Source of the DNA: Nitrospira sp.
GTDB taxonomy: Bacteria > Nitrospirota > Nitrospiria > Nitrospirales > Nitrospiraceae
DNA: 64,000 nt
Assembly (NCBI GenBank): GCA_029194665.1
Contig: JARFXO010000001.1
Coordinates: 1,030,484-1,094,483, forward strand
Reading direction: 5' to 3'
In this document: positions 41,077 to 52,986 of the stretch, piece by piece
Layout: each line of letters begins with the position of its first letter
Numbering within the stretch: the first letter of the stretch is position 1
Notes under the pieces: model-generated
Told to the model about the DNA's origin: nothing
Databases searched by the model: none
What the model saw: the letters and a program-made list of their open reading frames with translations, nothing else
Made by a program: the position numbers and the translations under genes

Positions 41077-41436
41077 TCAGAACATCACGTTCCGATCACG
41101 CTCGGCGACGGCTTTGACGTAATCCGGCATGCCTTTGATGGAAGCGCCGGCCACCAGATCTGCTACGCCAATTTGTCTGGCCACGGCACAGGCGCCACAC
41201 ACCCAGATCGGCACACCAGACGCCTGGATCGCGGCGAGTAGTTCTTTCAACGGAGTCAGGTTCACACCAGTTATGTGATCAGCCACGCCTTTCCTCCCCA
41301 ACGTCACAGCTTCATTCCACAGCCACAGCACCACGTCATGTCCTTGTTCCTTGGCCGTCTTGGCTGCCATGAACGGCAAGGTTGCCATCGTGGGATCGTC
41401 TGTTCCTCGGCTGCCGGAAATGATGAAAGTCGCCAT
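41077..41436 (-). CDS. DsrE/DsrF-like sulfur-relay family protein
   Basis: The 119-residue protein starts MATFIISGSRGTDDPT and has the Rossmann-like DsrE fold. Its GVPIWVCGACAVARQIGV segment contains Cys residues at the position where family members carry persulfide. The spacing of hydrophobic strands fits DsrE/YchN. Partners such as TusB/TusC are not seen here. It is 28 bases from the cytochrome c gene on the same strand. Confidence 0.8.
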   Translation of the reverse strand: MATFIISGSRGTDDPTMATLPFMAAKTAKEQGHDVVLWLWNEAVTLGRKGVADHITGVNLTPLKELLAAIQASGVPIWVCGACAVARQIGVADLVAGASIKGMPDYVKAVAERDRNVMF

Positions 41437-41465
41437 CGTCTAGTACTCCCTTCCTGTGTGGAATG

Positions 41466-41880
41466 TCATGGTTTGAGTGACGCTATCGTTTCCAGTGATG
41501 GCGCGAAGAATGTCGCGCCTGTGACGGCCCGGCTGAATTCCATTAATCGATCGTGTTTCCCATCGTCTGCCGTCCCCATCATGCGAGCCAACATCAGGTC
41601 GAAAATGTCGAGAGACTTCGTATAGGCGCCGAAGTTACGCCCCGCTGCATGGGCGGTTCCCCGACGAGAGCCGATCCCAGAGGCCGGAACCGATACCAAA
41701 CGTGCGGAAGAGTCATGCCCTCGTCTCACGAATTGCGAGCGCCTTCGCCGTCGGGAGAATATCCCCTATTGCCTTGACCCATGCCGAGCGCTCGGCACCA
41801 TGGCCGAATGTAAAGGTGAGAAAATAGGCATGAGGGCTCCCTGCCACAAGGACGTCGATTGCGATGTCGGCATCAGCCAT
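41466..41880 (-). pseudogene. Dyp-type peroxidase remnant with internal deletion
   Basis: Two disconnected frames resemble the ends of a Dyp-type peroxidase. A 55-codon piece at 41713-41880 has GSPHAYFLTFTFGHG, like the N-terminal strand. An out-of-frame piece ending at 41466 has YTKSLDIFDLMLARM and FSRAVTGATFFAPSL, like the C-terminal end. The middle of the enzyme, including the GxxDG segment and the haem-ligand His, is missing. The most direct reading is an internal deletion plus frame change. Alternatively the first piece is an unrelated small gene. Confidence 0.5.
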
Positions 41881-41947
41881 TCCGTTCTACTCCGTCGTTC
41901 CTCAATCGCATCCGGCTGCATCCAGCTGTCGGCTCTTAGACTGGACC

Positions 41948-42166
41948 TCATTTCTTCACACCGGGCGCTGGAGAGCAGGTATTGATCCCCAACAGCGAGG
42001 ACAGAGGGCAATATCCCACCACCCCGGTGAGCAGTAGTATAACCCCCACCGCAAGGGAGGCTCCTGCAACGGCGGTTGAAACCCCCGCAAAGAGGCCGAT
42101 CATGATCGCCAGTAGTCCTGCTCCAATTCGAATTGGTCTCTCAATCCCTCCCACATTGCACTTCAT
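41948..42166 (-). CDS. DUF2892 (YgaP-type) small membrane protein
   Basis: The 72-residue protein has two hydrophobic helices and the signature MKCNVGGIERPIRIGAG, then VVGYCPLSSLLGINTC near the end, diagnostic of DUF2892. Family members often accompany rhodanese or sulfur and metal stress genes. AGGAGG lies seven bases before the ATG at 42166. Its role is not known. Confidence 0.85.
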   Translation of the reverse strand: MKCNVGGIERPIRIGAGLLAIMIGLFAGVSTAVAGASLAVGVILLLTGVVGYCPLSSLLGINTCSPAPGVKK

Positions 42167-42250
42167 TGCCACACCTCCTCGCTAAATCTGAGCGCTGTTG
42201 ATTCGCCTGTCACGATGATATGAGACAACGCGCGCACATTGGATTCACCT

Positions 42251-42463
42251 TTATGGTTGTCCACGAGACTCAACCCCGAGCGTGCGCACATAAGCCAAGA
42301 CCTCCCACATCTCTTCATCAGGGAGGCTGTATTTCCACGCACCCAGGGCAGTATTCGGTTTGCCTTCATGAATGCGTCGGGACAACGTGCCGTCGAATCG
42401 ATTTTGGACAACAGACGAAATGAGATCGATCGGCGTACCATTAGCCGTCAATGCGTATGACAA
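42251..42463 (-). pseudogene. 5'-truncated cytochrome c fragment
   Basis: The frame encodes the C-terminal half of a class I cytochrome c: an NRFDGTLSRRIHEGKP segment and a closing helix LPDEEMWEVLAYVRTLG. There is no CxxCH haem site, and a TAA codon lies four codons upstream of its first possible start (TTG at 42463). It is most simply a 5'-deleted gene. Similar small fragments flank it, suggesting rearrangement here. Confidence 0.6.
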
Positions 42464-42630
42464 TGTGCGTCTTTATTCGTCAATCACTTATGTTGTTTTG
42501 TTGATATCGCGCGGAGAACCAGGAGTCGATCGGCAAAAACCTCCGCAGAGCCGCTTCGCCCAATGATGCGGAATGCTACAGAGTTTAACCTTGAATCACT
42601 TGAACTAATGTTTAGTGGGTAGTATCCTGG

Positions 42631-42708
42631 CTCATTTCCACCGCTCATTTCCACCGCTCATTTCCACCGCTCATTTCCACCGCTCATTTCCACCGCTCAT
42701 TTCCACCG
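42631..42708. repeat. Six perfect tandem copies of a 13-bp unit
   Basis: The unit ctcatttccaccg is repeated six times without change or spacer. It ends 173 bases before the start codon of the lipopeptide synthetase. It is not an array with spacers, so not CRISPR. Copy number could vary by slippage, and the repeat may serve as a regulator site or be neutral. Confidence 0.95.
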
Positions 42709-42812
42709 ACCGCAAGTCGACGGCAGATCTTACATAAGGAAAGATGTGCCCTTCGAGTGAGGATGAAACGTTCGGGAAGAAACTCATTTGCGGTTAGAAA
42801 CAGGGAAATTCT

Positions 42813-42840
42813 TTGAATTTGCTATCAAGCACACTACCCT
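42813..42840 (+). promoter_or_regulatory. Weak possible promoter for the lipopeptide synthetase
   Basis: TTGAAT and TACCCT are separated by 16 bases, about 40 bases before the start. The -10 element is poor. Other sites are not excluded. Confidence 0.2.
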
Positions 42841-42881
42841 AGTCATCGGTGAAGGGATAACCGGTAACAGTTATTAGAGTT

Positions 42882-45800
42882 TTGTCAGAGTCGAAGTCTG
42901 GGTGTCGCGCGTACATGTTTAAGCTTCCTCCCCGGGCCATCCATAGCCTCCCTGATCTCTTCGAACTTCGATGCCGGCAGGAGCCGGATAGGCTTGCCTA
43001 TGCCCTCATTCGTGACAACCTCGAAATCGAGAGTCAGCTGACCTATGGTCAGCTTGAACGCAGGGTGCGCTCGCTTGCCGGCCATCTCGCGCGGGCGGTT
43101 TCACCGGGAACCAAAGCTCTGCTGCTCTACCCACAGGGACTCGAGGCCGTGTGCGCCTTCTGGGCATGTGTCTGTGCCGGTGTCGTGCCGGTTCCCGCCC
43201 CGGCTCCCGATCCCGTCAGACAGAAACACAGCCTGCCGAGACTTCGCTCTATTATTGAGGATGCCCAGGCGTCGCTTGTGCTCACGACCTCCGGCATCCA
43301 GACTCTGTCTTCTGAGCTCTCAATCGCGAAGGGAGTGGGTCAGATTCAATGGGTGACGACTGATCAACCCAACGATGAGGTCGACTCGATTGAGTTGCCC
43401 TGCCCTCCCAGCACCGCTCTTGCCTATCTGCAATATACCTCAGGATCGACGGCCGCTCCTCGTGGGGTCATGATCCGTCATGGGAACGTGCTTGCCCATT
43501 GCAAAGCCTTGAGTCTGGCCGGAGAAGTGTCGGACAACAGCCGGTCACTCTGCTGGTTGCCGTACTTCCATGACTATGGGTTACTGCATGGAATCATCGC
43601 GCCGTTCTATGCCGGTATTCCCGCCTATCTGATGTCGCCCATCACGTTTCTGCGGCGGCCGCTACGCTGGCTTGAAGCGGTGGCCCGATTTGCCATTACC
43701 CACAGCGGGGGACCGAACTTTTCCTATGAAGCTTGCCTCAGGACTGTACGGCAGCAAGAAGGGTGGCAGGGTGACTTGAGCAAGTGGATGGTCGCCAGTT
43801 GCGGCGCCGAACCAATTCATCCGGATACGGTTGAGCAGTTTATCGCCATTTTTGGTTCGCGTGGCTTCCGAAGCAAGGCATTTGCCCCGGGGTATGGGCT
43901 TGCGGAGGCCACGCTGTTGGTAACGATGAAGCGGGCCGGAGCCGAACCGAGCTTCTTGCATGTAGACGCCGACTCCTTGGCCGACTCGATCGTTAAAGAG
44001 TCCCCCGCATCGCAACAGCGAACTCGGACATTGGTCGGATGTGGGGAGCCCCTCGAAGAGACTCATATACGGATTGTGAATCCTACGACTCACCGCGAGT
44101 GCCCGCCAGACCTTGTGGGAGAAGTGTGGCTGGCTGGAGCCGGGGTCGGTTCTGGATACTGGGACAAACCGGAAGAAACCGACACCACATTTAATGCCAC
44201 GATCGCTGGGTCAGGAGAGGGTCCCTATTTACGAACCGGCGATCTGGGATTCCTCCACTGCGGAGAGCTGTTCCTGACTGGACGTCTCAAAGATCTGATC
44301 ATCGTACGTGGGCGAAATTATTATCCTCAGGATCTGGAGTGGTCGGCCCAACAGGCGCATCCCGGCTTGCGACATGGAGGTGGAGCAGCCTTCTCCGTTG
44401 AGGGCGAGACCGGAGAGCTGGTGGTGCTGGTCCATGAGATCGAGAAACAGCTGCCTGAATCCAACCTGAGGGAAGTGGTGAGCTGCATCCGTCGCGCGCT
44501 GGCCGACGAATATGAACTCGAAATCCACAGGGTGGTGCTGGTCAAGTCCGGCACGATCCCCAGAACCTCCAGCGGAAAAATTCAGCGGGGCGCCTGCAGA
44601 GCCGCCTTTGAGTCAGGCCGACTTGCCGTAGTCATGGCGAGCACGCTCGACCTGGCTCCGGAGTCGGAAACCGATGGAGCGCCGAACGAGACTCCGCAAA
44701 CTCCCGTCGAGAAACGACTGGCCGATATTTGGCAAGAGGTGCTCGGAGGACAGCATCCGCACCGCCATGCGAACTTCTTTGCACTCGGAGGCAATTCGCT
44801 CCTCGCAGCACAGGTTGTTGCACGCATCCTCGATATCTTCCACGTCGAGCTCCCGCTCAGTGTGCTGTTCGAATGCCCGACATTGTCCGCGCTCGCCGCT
44901 CGGATCGGTCAACCGAGCACGAGTCTGAATGCCTCAGATCGTGCCGGGGAGGGAGATGGGTACAGCAATGTCGACGGTGGAACAGGGAGTTCACCCGTTC
45001 CGCTTCCTTCGGCATCCCCAAGAGAAGGCAGGATTCCCCTTAGTCCTTCGCAACAGCGACTGTGGTTCCTGGAACAAGTTCGCCCTGGGAGCGCGATCAA
45101 CCATATTTCCATGGAGGTGCGCCTACGCGGGGCGGTCAACCCAGAGGTGTTGGAGCGGTCCGTGCAGGAAATCGCCCGTCGTCACGAGATTCTTCGAACT
45201 CGTTTCGGATCGGAGCGAGGCGAGGGATTCGCAGAAGTTTCCTCTGAGGCAATCGTCACGATCAGACGGCAAGATTTCCAAACATTGGACCCTCTAGAGC
45301 AAGAAATGCAGGTACGGCAATTCCTACGAGCGGAGAGGAGCCGGCCGTTCGACTTACGACAGGGGCCGCTATTCAGAGTGACCCTGCTGGCCCTTGAACC
45401 GACTGTGAATGTCCTCGCTCTGACGGTCCACCGTCTGGTCGCCGATGGGTGGTCTCTCCGTATCTTCTGGAAAGAATTGGCCCTTCTCTGGGAAGCCGGT
45501 GGCGATGTTCAAGGGGCTCGCCTTCCCACATTGACCGTTCAGTATGCGGACTATGCCGATTGGCAGAGAGCCAGGCTTGATCACGGCCTTCGTGAGGTCC
45601 ATCGAGCCTACTGGGTTCGGCAGTTGAGCGGCGCTCGTTCTCCCGCTGAACTACCGGCCGATCGTCAGAGGCCGCGAGTGCGCACGTTCGAGGGAGGTCT
45701 GCGATCGCGATCGCTTTCTCCGAAACTTTCGGCCGACCTCGACCTCTTCTGTCAGCAACAGAACGTCACAACGTTCATGGTGCTGTATGCCGTCTTTGCG

Positions 45801-48800
45801 ACTTGGCTGCGTCGTTACACACAAGAGTCGGATATCGTCATCGGATCGATCGTGGCCGGCAGGCGTCGGAGAGAGATCGAAGACATGATGGGCTATTGCG
45901 TCAATACCGTAGCGTTGCGGTCCGAGCTCTCGAATGGGATGACAGGACAAGAATTGCTGAAGCAGGTCCGCCGGGTGGTGGTGGACGCCTATGACCATCA
46001 GGACCTACCATTTGAAGAGGTCATCGAGGCGCTGTCGTTACACCGAGAGCGTCAGCTGTCTCCGCTGTTTAACGTCATGATCGTGTGTGAAGATGACCCC
46101 TTGTCCACGTTCACCGTCAGGGATCTTGAGGTCGCTCATCTCCCCTGGGAGCCGACTGCGTCGGAGTTCGATCTTGTGTTGATGGTGGTCAACAAGGCTG
46201 ACGGCCTGGACTTGGCGTTGCTCCATGATTCCACGATTTTCGATGACTCGACGATCGACCGCATGTTGGGGCAGCTTGAGATCCTTCTTGAGGAATTTCT
46301 CGCGAAACCTGAGGCTCCGCTTGACCAACATTCATTGCTGACCACCGAGGAGAAACGGCACATTCAACTGACGTGGAACGAACCACGTCACTCGGCCTCG
46401 GGTATCCATGCGCTCATCGAGGCGCAAGTTGATCGGACTCCTCATGCACCGGCTGTCACGTGCGGAGACCAGTCTATCAGCTACCAAGAACTGAACCGAC
46501 GAGCGAATCGAGTCGCTCGCGCGCTCCAGAAATTAGGGGTCGTTCCAGATCTCCCGGTGGGTCTCTGTGTCGAGCGCTCGGTGGACGCCCTCGTGGGCCT
46601 CCTGGGCATTCTCAAAGCCGGGGGCGGGTATGTTCCCCTGGATCCCTCCTTCCCCAGTCATCGTCTCCAGCTCATGTTGGAGGACGCCCAAGTTTCCATC
46701 GTCGTCACACAGGCACACCTCCGTACCCACCTACAGAGTTATCGAGGCCAAATCTGTGATCTAGAAACCCTGTGTACATCCACTCTGGGCGGAGCGGAAG
46801 AGGAGAACTTAGCACTTCCTGTTTCCCCTGATCAGCTCGCCTATATCATCTACACTTCTGGCTCGACAGGGCACCCCAAGGGCGTGGCCGTGCCACACCG
46901 CGGTCTGGTGACCTCTCTTCAGGCCAGACTTCAGTACTATCAGGAACCGGTTTCCAGGTTTTTACTGACCTTCTCGCTGGCCTTTGATGGGTCCGTGACG
47001 GGCATATTTTGGACCTTGCTGCAGGGAGGGGAACTGGTCATTCCATCAGAGACCGCCCATCGAGACCCAACAGAGCTGGCAACGCTCATCGAGCACCATC
47101 GCATCTCGCACATCGTGTGGGTCCCTTCTTTGTACCGTGTCGTGCTGGGTGAGGTGTTGAGTACTCAGCTGGAATCGCTGCTTGTCGTCATTACTGCCGG
47201 AGAAAACCTGCCTCTTGAACTTGTGCAACGGCATTACCAGCTCCTGCCTCATGCCGTGCTGTACAACGAGTATGGACCAACGGAGACCACGGTCTGGTGC
47301 AGTGTGTATCAAACGACTCGTGAGGAAACGGGGGCCCGCGTACCGATCGGCAAACCCATCGACCATATGCAGCTCTATGTGCTGGATGGACGCCTGCAAC
47401 CGATGCCGATCGACGTACCGGGAGAACTCTATATCTCGGGAGAGTGTCTGGCCCGCGGCTATGTCAACCAGCCGCAGTTGACCCAAGAGCGGTTTCTTGC
47501 GAATCCCTTCGTGGCCGGCACCAGGCTCTATCGGACCGGTGACCTAGCGCGGTACCGCGCCGACGGCAATGTGGAGTTTCTGGGAAGAGTGGATCAACAA
47601 GTCAAGCTGCGTGGATATCGGATCGAACTGGGCGAAATCGAATATGTGTTGAGTAACTTCCCGGGCGTGCATCAAGCGGCGGCGCTCCTTCGGGAGGATA
47701 AACCGGAACAGCACCGGTTGGTAGGCTATGTCGCCGGCGAGCCATCACTGAGAGAGACGCTCGACCAGGTTCGCAGTCATCTTGCAGCTCGGTTACCGCA
47801 CTACATGGTGCCATCCGTCATTCTGTGGCTGGAGACGATGCCGCTCAGTGCTACCGGGAAAGTGAATCGACATGCGCTTCCCACTCCGGAACTCACAGCC
47901 GGTCGGGCGGCAGCCAGGATAGCTCCAAGAAATCAGGTCGAAGAATCATTGGCTGAGCTGTGGAAATCAGTGCTTCAAGTCCCCGAGGCAGGCATCCACG
48001 ACCATTTCTTCGAGCAGGGAGGCCACTCTCTGGTGGCGACCCAGCTCGTCTCCCGGATACACGAGCTTTTTGAGGTCGACGTCTCCCTACAGGCGCTTTT
48101 TGAGCGCCCGACCATCGCGGCATTGGCCGAAGAAGTCATACGGTTGCGCCAGAGGGAAAAGGCTTCCGTGATGCCGCCGATCGTTTCGGTGCCCAGGGAC
48201 CAGCCGCTCCCGCTTTCCTATTCTCAACAACGCATGTGGCTCATGCATCAGCTGGCTCCTCAGAGCACGGCGTATAACATGCCGTTCGCGTCTCGGCAAA
48301 TGGGACGCCTCAACAAAGCAGCCCTTCGGAGTACGATCGATGCCATCTGTAGCCGACATGAGGCATTTAGAACGACGTTCATGATGAGGGGTGATGGACC
48401 GGTCCAAGTGATCCACCCCTTTCGCTCTCCCCATTGGACAGAGGTGGATCTTCAGGACGTGCCCCTCGAACATCGACGACAGCAGGCGGCTCGGCTTGTC
48501 GAGCAGGAAGCGAACCAACCGTTCGATCTTGAGAAGGGCCCACTGGCACGGTTCCTCTTGATTGAGATCGAGCCCGAGGACTATGTGTTGGTCCTCACGA
48601 TGCATCATATCATCGGAGATCAGTGGTCGTTCGGGATCATCGGGTATGAGTTTGCATTCTTCTACAATGCGTTTTCGCAAGGAGAAATGCCTGCGCCAAA
48701 GGCGATCCCGCTTCAATATGCCGACTATGCGGTGTGGCAGCGGCGTTGCCTGACCGACGACCGCCTCAGCACACAATCGGATTATTGGCAGAAGAAGCTG

Positions 48801-51800
48801 GCCGGACTGCCGAAGCTTTCCTTGCCGACCGATTACACACGACATCTGGTGCAGACATTTAACGGCTCACATCGCATGCTGGAGTTGCCTACCTCGTTGA
48901 TCGAGCGACTGAAGCAATTCAGCGCTGAGCACAATGTGACGGTGTTCATGACCCTGTTGGCCTGTTTCCAGATTCTCCTGAGTCGCTATTCCGGCCAATT
49001 CGATGTGGCCGTAGGCTCTCCTATCGCCAACCGGACTCAATCCGCGGTCGAGTCGATCATCGGCTCGTTTGTCAATACGCTCGTCCTGCGTACCGATCTC
49101 TCCGGCGATCCGACGTTCATCGAGTTGATGGCGCGGGTGCGGGAAACGGCGCTGGAGGCCTATGCCAATCAGGACTTCCCCTTCGATAAATTGGTCGAGA
49201 CGATGCACTCCGCTCGCGACCATAGCTCTGCCCCGCTCGTGCAGGTGCTCTTCAATGTACCGAATGCTCCTATCGGAGAAATCAACGTCCAAGGATTGAG
49301 CTGGGTGCCGTTCGAGGTGGAGACACAAGCGGCGCAATTCGACTTGAGCTTGACGATCGAGACGGAGTTTTCCCGGAAAGCTTACTTGACGTTCAATACC
49401 GATCTCTTTGAGCCCCAGACCGCTGAACGGATGTTGGGTCAGTATAAGGTCTTGCTGCTGACCGCCTTGGCGAATCCGGACAGTAAGTTATCCGAGCTTC
49501 CGACCGTAACGGCAATCGAACGCCGACAGATGTTGCAGGATTGGAACCGCACGCAAAGAGATTACCCACAGTCTGAATGTTTCCCCCAACTGTTTGAGGC
49601 ACAGGTCGAGAGGACGCCTGACACCGTGGCGTTGTCGATGGGACGAGAGGTGCTGCGGTACGGTGAGCTCAATGCCCGAGCTAATCAGTTGGCGCGATAT
49701 CTCCAAACGCTGGGCGCCAAGCCTGGCGTGACGGTGGGTATTGGTCTAGAGCGATCCTTCGAGATGGTGATAGCGTTGATGGCCGTGATGAAAAGCGGTG
49801 CGGCCTACGTGCCCCTTGACCCTGACTATCCACGTGATCGTCTTCGGTATATGTCGGAGAACGCCTCGCTCGCCATTGTGCTCACATCTGAAGCGCTGGC
49901 GGATCGGTTTGATGCTCAAGTCTGCCGCAGGGTGTGCCTCGATCGAGAATCGGGTAGGATCGCACGGGAGTCGGACCATAATGTTCCTCCGTCCGCCACG
50001 CCTCATGATTTGGCGTACATCCTGTACACGTCTGGGTCGACGGGCCAGCCCAAGGGAGTGGAAATTCCACACCAAGCACTGGTGAACTTCTTGTGTTCGA
50101 TACGACAGGAGCCGGGATGTTTACCCGAGGACGTCATGCTCTCCGTCACGACGCTCTCTTTCGATATCGCCGGATTGGAGTTGTATGTGCCGTTACTGGT
50201 TGGAGCCCGTGTCGAGATCGCCGATCGCGCCGTTGCCATGGACGGACGACAACTGCGGGTTCTTTGTGAAGCTGTTCAGCCGACGATCATGCAAGCGACT
50301 CCTGCCACATGGCGAATGCTCGTTGAGGCTGGATGGCAAGGCAGTAACAGATTGACGGTACTCTGCGGTGGAGAGCCCCTTCCACCCGATCTTGCGACGC
50401 TCTTGTTGGATCGGAGCGTCGCCCTCTGGAATATGTATGGCCCGACCGAAACCACGATTTGGTCTACGATCGAGAGAATCGAGCGGAGCGATGGGGAAAT
50501 CACTATCGGAAGACCGATTGCCAATACGGAAGTGTATATCCTGGATCAATTCCTCCAACCGGTTCCCATCGGAGTCTCCGGGGAGCTCTATATCGGAGGC
50601 CATGGGTTAGCCCGAGGCTATTGCGGGAGGCCGGATTTAACGCAGGAGCGGTTCATTCCTCATCCATTTTCTCAAGAGCCGGCGAGATTGTATCGAACGG
50701 GAGACTCGGCACGGTATCGCCCGGATGGACGCATCGTGCACCTCGGCCGATTGGATCACCAAGTCAAGATCAGAGGGTTCCGAATCGAATTGGGCGAGAT
50801 CGAGACAGCGTTGAACCGCCATCACGCCGTCCGTCAGACCGTCGTCATAGCAAGGGACGATGACCACGGTGTGAAGCAATTAGTGGCGTATCTGGTCTGC
50901 CAGGAAGGCTCTATTCCAAGCCAGCCGGAACTTCGCGCGTTTCTGCGGGCCGAGATTCCTGAGTATATGGTCCCGTCGCTCTTCGTCTTTTTGAAGGCCA
51001 TGCCCTTGACCGCGAATAACAAGGTCGACAGGAAAGCATTGCCGGCTCCGGACTCCACTCGCGCGAGTAGCCCCGTTCACGTCGCGCCTCGCGATCGGAT
51101 GGAGATACAGATGGCGGCCTTGTGGCAACAAGTGTTCGAGGTCGACAAGGTCGGCATTCACGACAACTTTTTCGATCTCGGAGGCCATTCACTCAAAGCG
51201 GCTCAACTGTTCCATCTCATTGAACAGGTATTCGCCCGGCATCTTCCGCTTTCCACGCTGTTTCAAGCGCCGACTATCGCCGGTCTCACGTCGCTTCTTG
51301 TGGAGGAGCACCGGACACCCCCATGGCAATCGCTCGTCACCCTGCAACTCGGAAGATCGGCCGCCCCGGTGTTTCTGGTGTCGGCAGCAGCAGGAGGAGT
51401 GTTGTGGTATGCGCAGCTGGCGAGGCTTTTGGGTCAGGCACATCCGGTGTATGGTCTACAAGCCAGAGGGTATGATGGGACAGCGGAACCGTACGACTCC
51501 ATGTATGAGATCGCGAGGCATTACATCGCTGAATTGCGTTCGCGCCACCCCCATGGTCCATACGTGATCGTCGGCATCTGTACGGGCGGGCTGGTCGCCT
51601 ATGAGATGGCGCAGCAATTGGCCGAGCAGAACCAAGAAGTCACCTTGGTTATCGCGAACAGTTGGCATCCGACTTCGTATACCTCCTATAAGTACAGTTA
51701 TGATCTCCCAGCTGCGCTCGCGTTCCCGCTGGAAATCCTTTCCGTCACGCTGAGCGCCTGCGGCGAGCTCCGTCGAATGCCTATCACCCAGTGGGGTCAA

Positions 51801-52163
51801 GTCCTGAAGTACCACGGCAGTTTGCTTTTGTCACGGTTACGACAACCGGCCCCGAAGGAACCGGTGGAGCTTCGGTACAACCATATGCGACTCGCGATAT
51901 TCCGCGCGGCCGCCCGTTATACGATACGTCCCTATCGCGGACACATACTGAACATTGTGGCAGCGAAACGGATCATGGAGCATGATACCAGGCGTGTCTG
52001 GAGCGAACTGGCGGCCGAAGGGTGCCGGACTGTTGAGATTGCGACTCGGCGCACGACGGACCTGCTTATTTCACCGCACGTCGAAGAGATATCCTCCCAC
52101 ATTCGTCGCTATATCGCCGAGCGTTCTCTCGATGCCCCTCGGCCGCATAATAGGGCTGCGTGA
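42882..52163 (+). CDS. Lipopeptide synthetase FAAL-ACP-C-A-PCP-C-A-PCP-TE
   Basis: This 3093-residue nonribosomal peptide synthetase begins with a fatty acyl-AMP ligase (about 15-590; YTSGSTAAPRG, WLPYFHDYG). A carrier (Ser639), condensation C1 (about 710-1140), adenylation A1 (1185-1660), carrier (Ser1716), condensation C2 (1765-2190), adenylation A2 (2230-2700), carrier (Ser2770) and thioesterase (2820-3080) follow. A fatty acid is thus joined to two residues. Read by eye, the A1 pocket is D-G-T-W-I-A-E-V-W, partly Tyr-like; A2 is D-I-L-Q-L-G-M-I-W, close to glycine codes. C1 has HRLVADG instead of HHxxxDG; C2 has HHIIGDQ. The thioesterase has Cys2900 (GICTGG) for Ser and Asn2926 where Asp is usual; His3066 is present. 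The start is uncertain: TTG at 42882 or ATG at 42915. No epimerisation domain is seen. Confidence 0.93.
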   Translation: MSESKSGCRAYMFKLPPRAIHSLPDLFELRCRQEPDRLAYALIRDNLEIESQLTYGQLERRVRSLAGHLARAVSPGTKALLLYPQGLEAVCAFWACVCAGVVPVPAPAPDPVRQKHSLPRLRSIIEDAQASLVLTTSGIQTLSSELSIAKGVGQIQWVTTDQPNDEVDSIELPCPPSTALAYLQYTSGSTAAPRGVMIRHGNVLAHCKALSLAGEVSDNSRSLCWLPYFHDYGLLHGIIAPFYAGIPAYLMSPITFLRRPLRWLEAVARFAITHSGGPNFSYEACLRTVRQQEGWQGDLSKWMVASCGAEPIHPDTVEQFIAIFGSRGFRSKAFAPGYGLAEATLLVTMKRAGAEPSFLHVDADSLADSIVKESPASQQRTRTLVGCGEPLEETHIRIVNPTTHRECPPDLVGEVWLAGAGVGSGYWDKPEETDTTFNATIAGSGEGPYLRTGDLGFLHCGELFLTGRLKDLIIVRGRNYYPQDLEWSAQQAHPGLRHGGGAAFSVEGETGELVVLVHEIEKQLPESNLREVVSCIRRALADEYELEIHRVVLVKSGTIPRTSSGKIQRGACRAAFESGRLAVVMASTLDLAPESETDGAPNETPQTPVEKRLADIWQEVLGGQHPHRHANFFALGGNSLLAAQVVARILDIFHVELPLSVLFECPTLSALAARIGQPSTSLNASDRAGEGDGYSNVDGGTGSSPVPLPSASPREGRIPLSPSQQRLWFLEQVRPGSAINHISMEVRLRGAVNPEVLERSVQEIARRHEILRTRFGSERGEGFAEVSSEAIVTIRRQDFQTLDPLEQEMQVRQFLRAERSRPFDLRQGPLFRVTLLALEPTVNVLALTVHRLVADGWSLRIFWKELALLWEAGGDVQGARLPTLTVQYADYADWQRARLDHGLREVHRAYWVRQLSGARSPAELPADRQRPRVRTFEGGLRSRSLSPKLSADLDLFCQQQNVTTFMVLYAVFATWLRRYTQESDIVIGSIVAGRRRREIEDMMGYCVNTVALRSELSNGMTGQELLKQVRRVVVDAYDHQDLPFEEVIEALSLHRERQLSPLFNVMIVCEDDPLSTFTVRDLEVAHLPWEPTASEFDLVLMVVNKADGLDLALLHDSTIFDDSTIDRMLGQLEILLEEFLAKPEAPLDQHSLLTTEEKRHIQLTWNEPRHSASGIHALIEAQVDRTPHAPAVTCGDQSISYQELNRRANRVARALQKLGVVPDLPVGLCVERSVDALVGLLGILKAGGGYVPLDPSFPSHRLQLMLEDAQVSIVVTQAHLRTHLQSYRGQICDLETLCTSTLGGAEEENLALPVSPDQLAYIIYTSGSTGHPKGVAVPHRGLVTSLQARLQYYQEPVSRFLLTFSLAFDGSVTGIFWTLLQGGELVIPSETAHRDPTELATLIEHHRISHIVWVPSLYRVVLGEVLSTQLESLLVVITAGENLPLELVQRHYQLLPHAVLYNEYGPTETTVWCSVYQTTREETGARVPIGKPIDHMQLYVLDGRLQPMPIDVPGELYISGECLARGYVNQPQLTQERFLANPFVAGTRLYRTGDLARYRADGNVEFLGRVDQQVKLRGYRIELGEIEYVLSNFPGVHQAAALLREDKPEQHRLVGYVAGEPSLRETLDQVRSHLAARLPHYMVPSVILWLETMPLSATGKVNRHALPTPELTAGRAAARIAPRNQVEESLAELWKSVLQVPEAGIHDHFFEQGGHSLVATQLVSRIHELFEVDVSLQALFERPTIAALAEEVIRLRQREKASVMPPIVSVPRDQPLPLSYSQQRMWLMHQLAPQSTAYNMPFASRQMGRLNKAALRSTIDAICSRHEAFRTTFMMRGDGPVQVIHPFRSPHWTEVDLQDVPLEHRRQQAARLVEQEANQPFDLEKGPLARFLLIEIEPEDYVLVLTMHHIIGDQWSFGIIGYEFAFFYNAFSQGEMPAPKAIPLQYADYAVWQRRCLTDDRLSTQSDYWQKKLAGLPKLSLPTDYTRHLVQTFNGSHRMLELPTSLIERLKQFSAEHNVTVFMTLLACFQILLSRYSGQFDVAVGSPIANRTQSAVESIIGSFVNTLVLRTDLSGDPTFIELMARVRETALEAYANQDFPFDKLVETMHSARDHSSAPLVQVLFNVPNAPIGEINVQGLSWVPFEVETQAAQFDLSLTIETEFSRKAYLTFNTDLFEPQTAERMLGQYKVLLLTALANPDSKLSELPTVTAIERRQMLQDWNRTQRDYPQSECFPQLFEAQVERTPDTVALSMGREVLRYGELNARANQLARYLQTLGAKPGVTVGIGLERSFEMVIALMAVMKSGAAYVPLDPDYPRDRLRYMSENASLAIVLTSEALADRFDAQVCRRVCLDRESGRIARESDHNVPPSATPHDLAYILYTSGSTGQPKGVEIPHQALVNFLCSIRQEPGCLPEDVMLSVTTLSFDIAGLELYVPLLVGARVEIADRAVAMDGRQLRVLCEAVQPTIMQATPATWRMLVEAGWQGSNRLTVLCGGEPLPPDLATLLLDRSVALWNMYGPTETTIWSTIERIERSDGEITIGRPIANTEVYILDQFLQPVPIGVSGELYIGGHGLARGYCGRPDLTQERFIPHPFSQEPARLYRTGDSARYRPDGRIVHLGRLDHQVKIRGFRIELGEIETALNRHHAVRQTVVIARDDDHGVKQLVAYLVCQEGSIPSQPELRAFLRAEIPEYMVPSLFVFLKAMPLTANNKVDRKALPAPDSTRASSPVHVAPRDRMEIQMAALWQQVFEVDKVGIHDNFFDLGGHSLKAAQLFHLIEQVFARHLPLSTLFQAPTIAGLTSLLVEEHRTPPWQSLVTLQLGRSAAPVFLVSAAAGGVLWYAQLARLLGQAHPVYGLQARGYDGTAEPYDSMYEIARHYIAELRSRHPHGPYVIVGICTGGLVAYEMAQQLAEQNQEVTLVIANSWHPTSYTSYKYSYDLPAALAFPLEILSVTLSACGELRRMPITQWGQVLKYHGSLLLSRLRQPAPKEPVELRYNHMRLAIFRAAARYTIRPYRGHILNIVAAKRIMEHDTRRVWSELAAEGCRTVEIATRRTTDLLISPHVEEISSHIRRYIAERSLDAPRPHNRAA

Positions 52164-52200
52164 TCTTCGTCGCCCAGCTTCGTCCACCCGCGAAGCGACT

Positions 52201-52986
52201 ATGGGCATTAATGGCAACAGCGTGGTGATTTCCTTCCTACCCATTGAGCGCCTCACCGATACAAGGCAACTGGATCATATCCGTCTTGAAGAGAATGCCG
52301 TTCACCTGTGGGGGATCGAGCTCACCGGGTCGCGACACTGTCTGGAGCGATGCGGTGGCTGGTTGGATGAAGTCGAGCGGCACCGAGCGGCTCGCCTAAT
52401 CCGGGAGGATATCCGGCAGCGGTACGTGTTGGCTCACGGAGGCCTCAGGGCAGTGCTGAGTCGGTACCTTGGAGTCGACGCCGATGTGATCGCGCTGAAT
52501 CGCAACGCAACAGGCAAACCCTTCCTGACGAAGGAGTTACGAGACCGGTCGCCGATCACCTTCAATTTGTCTCATGCCCATGACCGTGCGCTCATTGCAA
52601 TCTCAAAAGGGCAGGAGGTCGGAGTTGATCTTGAGTTCGTTCGTGCGGATATCGAGGTTGCGAATCTATCCAAGCGTTTTTTTACTCCCTCCGAACATAC
52701 GGCGATCATGGAGGCGAGCGAGGAGCGGCGCGCCACGATCTTCTTCCGCTACTGGGTCGCCAAAGAGGCGCTGCTCAAGGCACAAGGTGTCGGCCTCGGA
52801 GGACTACCCGACTGCGAGATTGTCCTTGAGGGAAATGGAACCGACACAGAGGTTCAGGCCCGATTGGGCGCTCAGTTTTTAAATATGTTGAGGGTTCAGC
52901 TGGTTCCCTGTGAAACGGGATGGGAAGCAGCGGTGGCTGCTCAGCAGCTAGATGAGGTTAAACATTGCAGCCTCGACAGCCTGTAA
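52201..52986 (+). CDS. Sfp-type 4'-phosphopantetheinyl transferase
   Basis: The 261-residue enzyme has NATGKPFL, FNLSHAHDRALIA, VGVDLEF (magnesium-binding Asp/Glu) and FRYWVAKEALLKAQG, the ordered motifs of Sfp/Gsp transferases. It transfers phosphopantetheine from CoA to the Ser of carrier domains and should activate the three carriers of the synthetase just upstream. The ATG at 52201 lies 37 bases after its stop. The frame runs further upstream inside the synthetase gene (to 51955), but that part does not match the family. ATG at 52138 is another possible start. Confidence 0.9.
   Translation: MGINGNSVVISFLPIERLTDTRQLDHIRLEENAVHLWGIELTGSRHCLERCGGWLDEVERHRAARLIREDIRQRYVLAHGGLRAVLSRYLGVDADVIALNRNATGKPFLTKELRDRSPITFNLSHAHDRALIAISKGQEVGVDLEFVRADIEVANLSKRFFTPSEHTAIMEASEERRATIFFRYWVAKEALLKAQGVGLGGLPDCEIVLEGNGTDTEVQARLGAQFLNMLRVQLVPCETGWEAAVAAQQLDEVKHCSLDSL

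Follow-up and report, generated by a model that had tools for sequence, protein, structure and literature searches.

The leader of a synthetase gene in Nitrospira sp. carries a minisatellite that, with a probability we put at roughly three in four, arose by slippage from one 13-bp unit to six in this lineage and has little or no effect on the synthetase. This reading starts from what was observed, namely that the array is the sole one of its unit in the genome, that ten relatives have at most one unit each, that the flanks of the array can be aligned with theirs, and that the units are perfect; slippage as the cause, the recency of the expansion, and a nil or small effect on expression are what we infer from it. 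The array lies in a stretch of 64,000 nucleotides that is called the window here (Table 1). TRF reported it with a period of 13, 6.1 copies, 100% matches and a score of 158, the top of the eight rows in the window. The preliminary description had placed six copies at 42631-42708, which is the same array read in another register (CTCATTTCCACCG six times), and the six perfect 13-bp copies were thus confirmed. When up to two mismatches were allowed, the unit gave eight matches in the window, comprising the six array copies and two scattered sites with two mismatches, where chance yields a mean of 2.2, counting all matches. A tandem repeat with a unit of more than 10 bp is defined as a minisatellite in the cited portion of a review (PMC3899988), and the array belongs to this class with its head-to-tail copies (13 bp, 6.1 times, 100%). 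Its copy number also differs among genomes, with six here versus at most one in all ten aligned relatives, which are all other species.

Table 1. Coordinates of the array and of the features around it in the window
Feature	Position	Strand	Basis
Tandem array: 13-bp unit GCTCATTTCCACC, six times without mismatch, with one extra base (6.08 copies)	42630..42708	+	TRF and the sequence itself
Promoter-like element P1, TTGAAC-17 bp-TATCCT; weak candidate	42600..42628	+	Comparison with ten relatives
Final unit with the adjoining downstream bases, which align with the single diverged unit of the relatives (G021: CCTCACTTCCACCGACCTC)	42695..42713	+	Alignment
Longest strongly conserved leader block; may be the core promoter or an operator of the synthetase	42805..42851	+	Alignment of 11 sequences
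Synthetase with AMP-binding, condensation, carrier and thioesterase domains	42915..52163	+	Pfam; start by comparison with relatives

A genome search for further copies, as proposed in the preliminary description, returned this locus alone and not the many unrelated loci that had been considered there: no second array of the unit was detected in the genome itself (4.80 Mb in 17 contigs; 23-bp query, up to three mismatches). Furthermore, a 26-bp query with up to two mismatches matched only one of the 79 genus genomes (49 of them with a completeness of 90% or more and a contamination of 5% or less), namely the window's own, and none of the other 78. Exact 26-mers of the array gave zero matches in genome_contigs and viral_contigs, scans that may omit records very close to the window's genome, and the 281 bp surrounding the array had no match to plasmids by BLAST with the low-complexity filter on. 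Within the 464 kb that were scanned, made up of the window and twenty 20-kb stretches of contig C1, this was the sole exact array of at least three copies (unit 7-60 bp), which indicates that such slippage products are rare here; since a rare slippage product is located in a regulatory leader, some room is left for selection. The copy number comes from one assembly, and the six copies might therefore be an assembly artefact. We find this highly improbable, as 78 bp lie within the span of ordinary reads. In addition, assembly errors are expected to collapse repeats and not to expand them, as argued in the cited part of PMC12817950.

The DNA of the leader and the gene start matches 23 of the 79 genus genomes, the window's own included. 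The alignment comprises the 10 relatives whose match extends well into the leader, while 12 of the 22 other matching genomes, with short and mostly coding matches, were left out. In seven of the ten, the BLAST alignment flanks the array on both sides, and in three it covers the downstream side alone. As a result, a second unit was present in none of the ten aligned leaders, each of which has at most one, diverged unit, and exact arrays of at least three copies (unit 7-60) were absent from the 10-17 kb stretches of all ten. Compared with the last unit of the array, the aligned counterpart differs at 2 of 13 positions in both G021 and G056, at 3 in G055, at 4 in G053, at 5 each in G052, G063 and G054, and at 6 in G031; G034 (7 of 13) and G077 (8 of 11) are too diverged at the unit and show only the absence of the array. 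With no more than one unit in each of the ten relatives, the array is, as far as these alignments reach, a lineage-specific expansion that would have grown from a single segment, and on the same alignments there is no telling which of the six units is the ancestral one. The proposed history from one unit to six rests on one genome.

The purity of the units bears on the age of the expansion. G021, the nearest relative compared, differs from the window at 56 of 329 positions in the pooled leader, or at 25 of 199 in the part downstream of the array. In a simple Poisson estimate that assigns half of the G021 distance to each branch, 6.3 (pooled) or 4.5 (downstream) substitutions should have accumulated in the 65 extra bp along this branch, versus zero seen, and the probability of an unmutated 65 bp is 0.002 or 0.011. 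This deficit suggests that the expansion is younger than the split from G021, or that turnover of copies keeps the units alike. Together with the lack of a second unit in the relatives, it supports the recent expansion that had been proposed from the window alone, and the expansion is probably recent. Under the slippage reading, the starting point would have been one 13-bp segment already within the conserved synthetase leader, which replication slippage, or unequal recombination between copies, would have multiplied from one unit to six after separation from the nearest relative compared, thereby moving a weak distal promoter-like element and a strongly conserved proximal block 65 bp farther apart.

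The same alignment speaks to the idea that the units are putative sites of a regulator, forming a binding-site array multiplied by selection for stronger control. The multiplication did occur in a leader, and the units are identical; however, the single unit varies among the relatives by 2 to 8 differences, a variation that argues against strict conservation of a binding site. Furthermore, the 13-bp period corresponds to 1.24 helical turns (computed) and would set adjacent units about a quarter turn apart, and a regulator of this kind is not suggested by a genome in which the unit forms no further array. We thus regard a binding-site array as very unlikely.

Within the conserved leader, the array lies 206 bp before the ATG at 42915, and a repeat within a promoter, leader or reading frame is one feature of phase-variable contingency loci. 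All three forward frames are open across the array (42, 66 and 45 codons between stops), and the reverse frames have 12 codons from stop to stop; we do not suspect a gene running through it. The promoter-like element P1 stops one base short of the array. None of the ten relatives has an insertion or deletion within it, and TTGAA is kept in eight of them, the exceptions being G077 and G021; in G021, the nearest relative, the counterparts of the two hexamers read TCGAAT and TTCCTT. By manual count P1 reaches 8 of 12, under the 9-of-12 limit of the promoter scan, and the consensus scan of the region returned zero promoter-like and zero terminator-like sites, for chance expectations of 1.0 and 0.7.

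Closer to the gene, the longest conserved block sits about 65-110 bases before the start codon and contains a perfect inverted repeat, AAATTC-TTT-GAATTT (42806-42820). The majority fraction in the 11 sequences is 0.86-0.99 per ten columns across 42800-42859, and columns 42600-42609 also reach 0.94. The first 17 bp of the block, its palindromic core, have this single match in the genome when up to two mismatches are allowed, with no similar sites elsewhere. A degenerate pattern from the aligned leaders retrieved eight genome_contigs records, all titled Nitrospira, and in all eight loci a similar protein start lies 49-64 bases after the block; these loci form no independent sample, since the alignment itself supplied the pattern and the loci that were compared show the same leaders again. 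The block is probably a more informative regulatory feature of the leader than the array.

It had been suggested that changes in copy number could alter promoter spacing. In the sense of the distance between -35 and -10 elements this was not borne out, since the sole adjacent pair, P1, is weak and lies wholly upstream of the array; with P1 in that place, or with the promoter in the conserved block, copy number would leave the -35/-10 spacing unchanged either way. If P1 is the promoter, the transcript would start within the first unit and include the array as leader RNA, whereas with a promoter in the conserved block the array would stand about 100 bp farther upstream. A longer or shorter array could still change how far apart the distal and proximal leader elements lie.

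Folding predictions for the leader RNA gave an unpaired fraction of 0.53-0.55 at the start codon for one to eight copies (computed around 42914, the base preceding the A of the ATG), and the predicted accessibility of the start codon is independent of copy number. The predicted folding energy goes from -74.5 kcal/mol with one copy to -84.2 kcal/mol with five and six, and the array itself has a predicted mean unpaired fraction of 0.91 with one copy versus 0.43-0.55 with two to eight. With this lower energy and the partly paired array at higher copy number, an effect on leader RNA may exist. A consensus fold of the 11 sequences lent no support to a conserved RNA structure after the array (1 of 30 pairs changed on both sides; covariation +0.34), and an Rfam search of 41400-43100 with E up to 1 retrieved nothing.

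These results bear on a copy-number switch, in which slippage in living populations would tune or switch transcription of the synthetase, by analogy with the hmwA or Mycobacterium tuberculosis repeats. The repeat is pure, it lies between a promoter-like element and the gene, the predicted folding energy of the leader shifts with the number of copies, and comparable systems are described in the cited parts of PMC2424069 and PMC12817950. However, with more than one unit in none of the ten aligned relatives, a switch kept across those species was not observed, and start-codon accessibility is predicted to stay unchanged. Such a switch seems unlikely to us; the number of units may conceivably tune the synthetase, but this finds little support beyond the position of the array.

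Upstream of the synthetase, a DsrE gene and a cytochrome c gene precede it in the same order and orientation in seven of the ten relatives (G021, G053, G055, G056, G052, G063 and G034), and CBS and further genes are also collinear before it in six of those seven. In G077, CBS is present with no DsrE match, and the stretches of G031 and G054 are truncated by contig ends. Gene order downstream of the synthetase could be followed in G031 only, where it agrees with the window for the transferase and the genes beyond it; all other stretches break off within the synthetase.

The interval from DsrE to the leader is longer than that of the window in all seven comparable relatives. At 41873-41928 the window has about 55 bp versus about 2.9 kb in G021, and at 42427-42435 a further 0.23 kb or so of DNA present in G021 is missing here. 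The extra stretch of G021 encodes a cluster of cytochrome c proteins and an OsmC-like protein, which are missing at the window locus, while a small cytochrome c gene survives in its 3' part at about 42251-42435, as indicated by alignment to G021. Among the genes missing at the locus, the search of the own genome covered the 581-aa cytochrome only, and it found no full-length relative, the best matches having 38-41% over 118-133 residues at the end of the protein. Since the stretch is longer in all seven relatives and a cytochrome c 3' part is left over, the "decayed fragments" of the preliminary description are best read, from this alignment, as remnants of local gene loss. In the leader of G055 (L041 7555-9002), roughly 1.4 kb of DNA flanked by 17-bp direct repeats is inserted at the 5' edge of the promoter-like element; this insertion contains a 424-aa frame that we take, by its look, to be a transposase.

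The preliminary description had further offered the array as a possible mark of an island junction. The array does adjoin gene remnants, and the insertion in the G055 leader would be in keeping with a genomic island or mobile-element junction. However, the flanking gene order is not broken in the relatives: the upstream genes and the synthetase are collinear in seven of the ten, the other three stretches being too incomplete to show the order in full. Since this order is kept, the array does not appear to be an island junction. The single copy of the array in the genome, the lack of a plasmid match for the surrounding 281 bp and the lack of an exact viral-contig match also count against a junction, to which we give hardly any credence.

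The synthetase itself has three AMP-binding domains, two condensation domains, three carrier stretches and one thioesterase domain according to Pfam. Its longest frame runs from a TTG at 42882, whereas the ATG at 42915 aligns with the start in the relatives. A phosphopantetheinyl transferase gene follows, and both genes are within 42915-52986. The first AMP-binding domain has a DIP2-like C-terminal part, which suggests a fatty-acyl starter unit and hence a putative lipopeptide-like product. Among the matches listed, the Nitrospira literature on nonribosomal peptide synthetases or tandem repeats held none on this locus.

As a minisatellite, the array is unremarkable. Strains of this species could be typed with it, and it offers a natural comparison of one unit versus six in an otherwise conserved leader. 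We consider it quite unlikely that the array forms a contingency locus, its copy number fluctuating within living Nitrospira populations and thereby setting how much of the putative lipopeptide-like product is made. If copy number does vary and does change expression, contingency-type control would be extended to a Nitrospira natural-product gene, and a contingency locus would serve secondary metabolism in a free-living nitrifier and not a pathogen surface antigen.

Expression is known to change through tandem repeats that lie upstream of genes, as stated in the cited portion of the review (PMC3899988), and the systems compared below are likewise taken as the cited portions of their sources present them. 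The TAACTGA intergenic direct repeats of Beggiatoaceae (PMC4679880) resemble the array as direct repeats upstream of start codons, with two to six per set, but they are dispersed over many loci, with 169 sets in one draft genome, whereas the Nitrospira array occupies a single locus. The promoter tandem repeats of M. tuberculosis, which have been proposed to tune or switch transcription (PMC12817950), are alike in that units lie upstream of a gene and their number differs among genomes; there, however, the variation is among isolates and within populations, while here one genome is compared with other species. The 7-bp promoter repeats of Haemophilus influenzae hmw1A and hmw2A (PMC2424069) also comprise several tandem units upstream, and their transcript generally drops as copies rise, with 9-28 copies among isolates, in contrast to the 13-bp unit here, with six copies in one genome. 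Repeats upstream of uspA1 and uspA2 are described as an example of such repeats changing expression (PMC4679880). In Moraxella catarrhalis uspA2, the AGAT repeats are in the 5' untranslated region (PMC4679880); the promoter next to the Nitrospira array is, by comparison, a weak candidate, and if P1 is indeed that promoter, the two arrangements would be alike, with the repeats between promoter and start codon.
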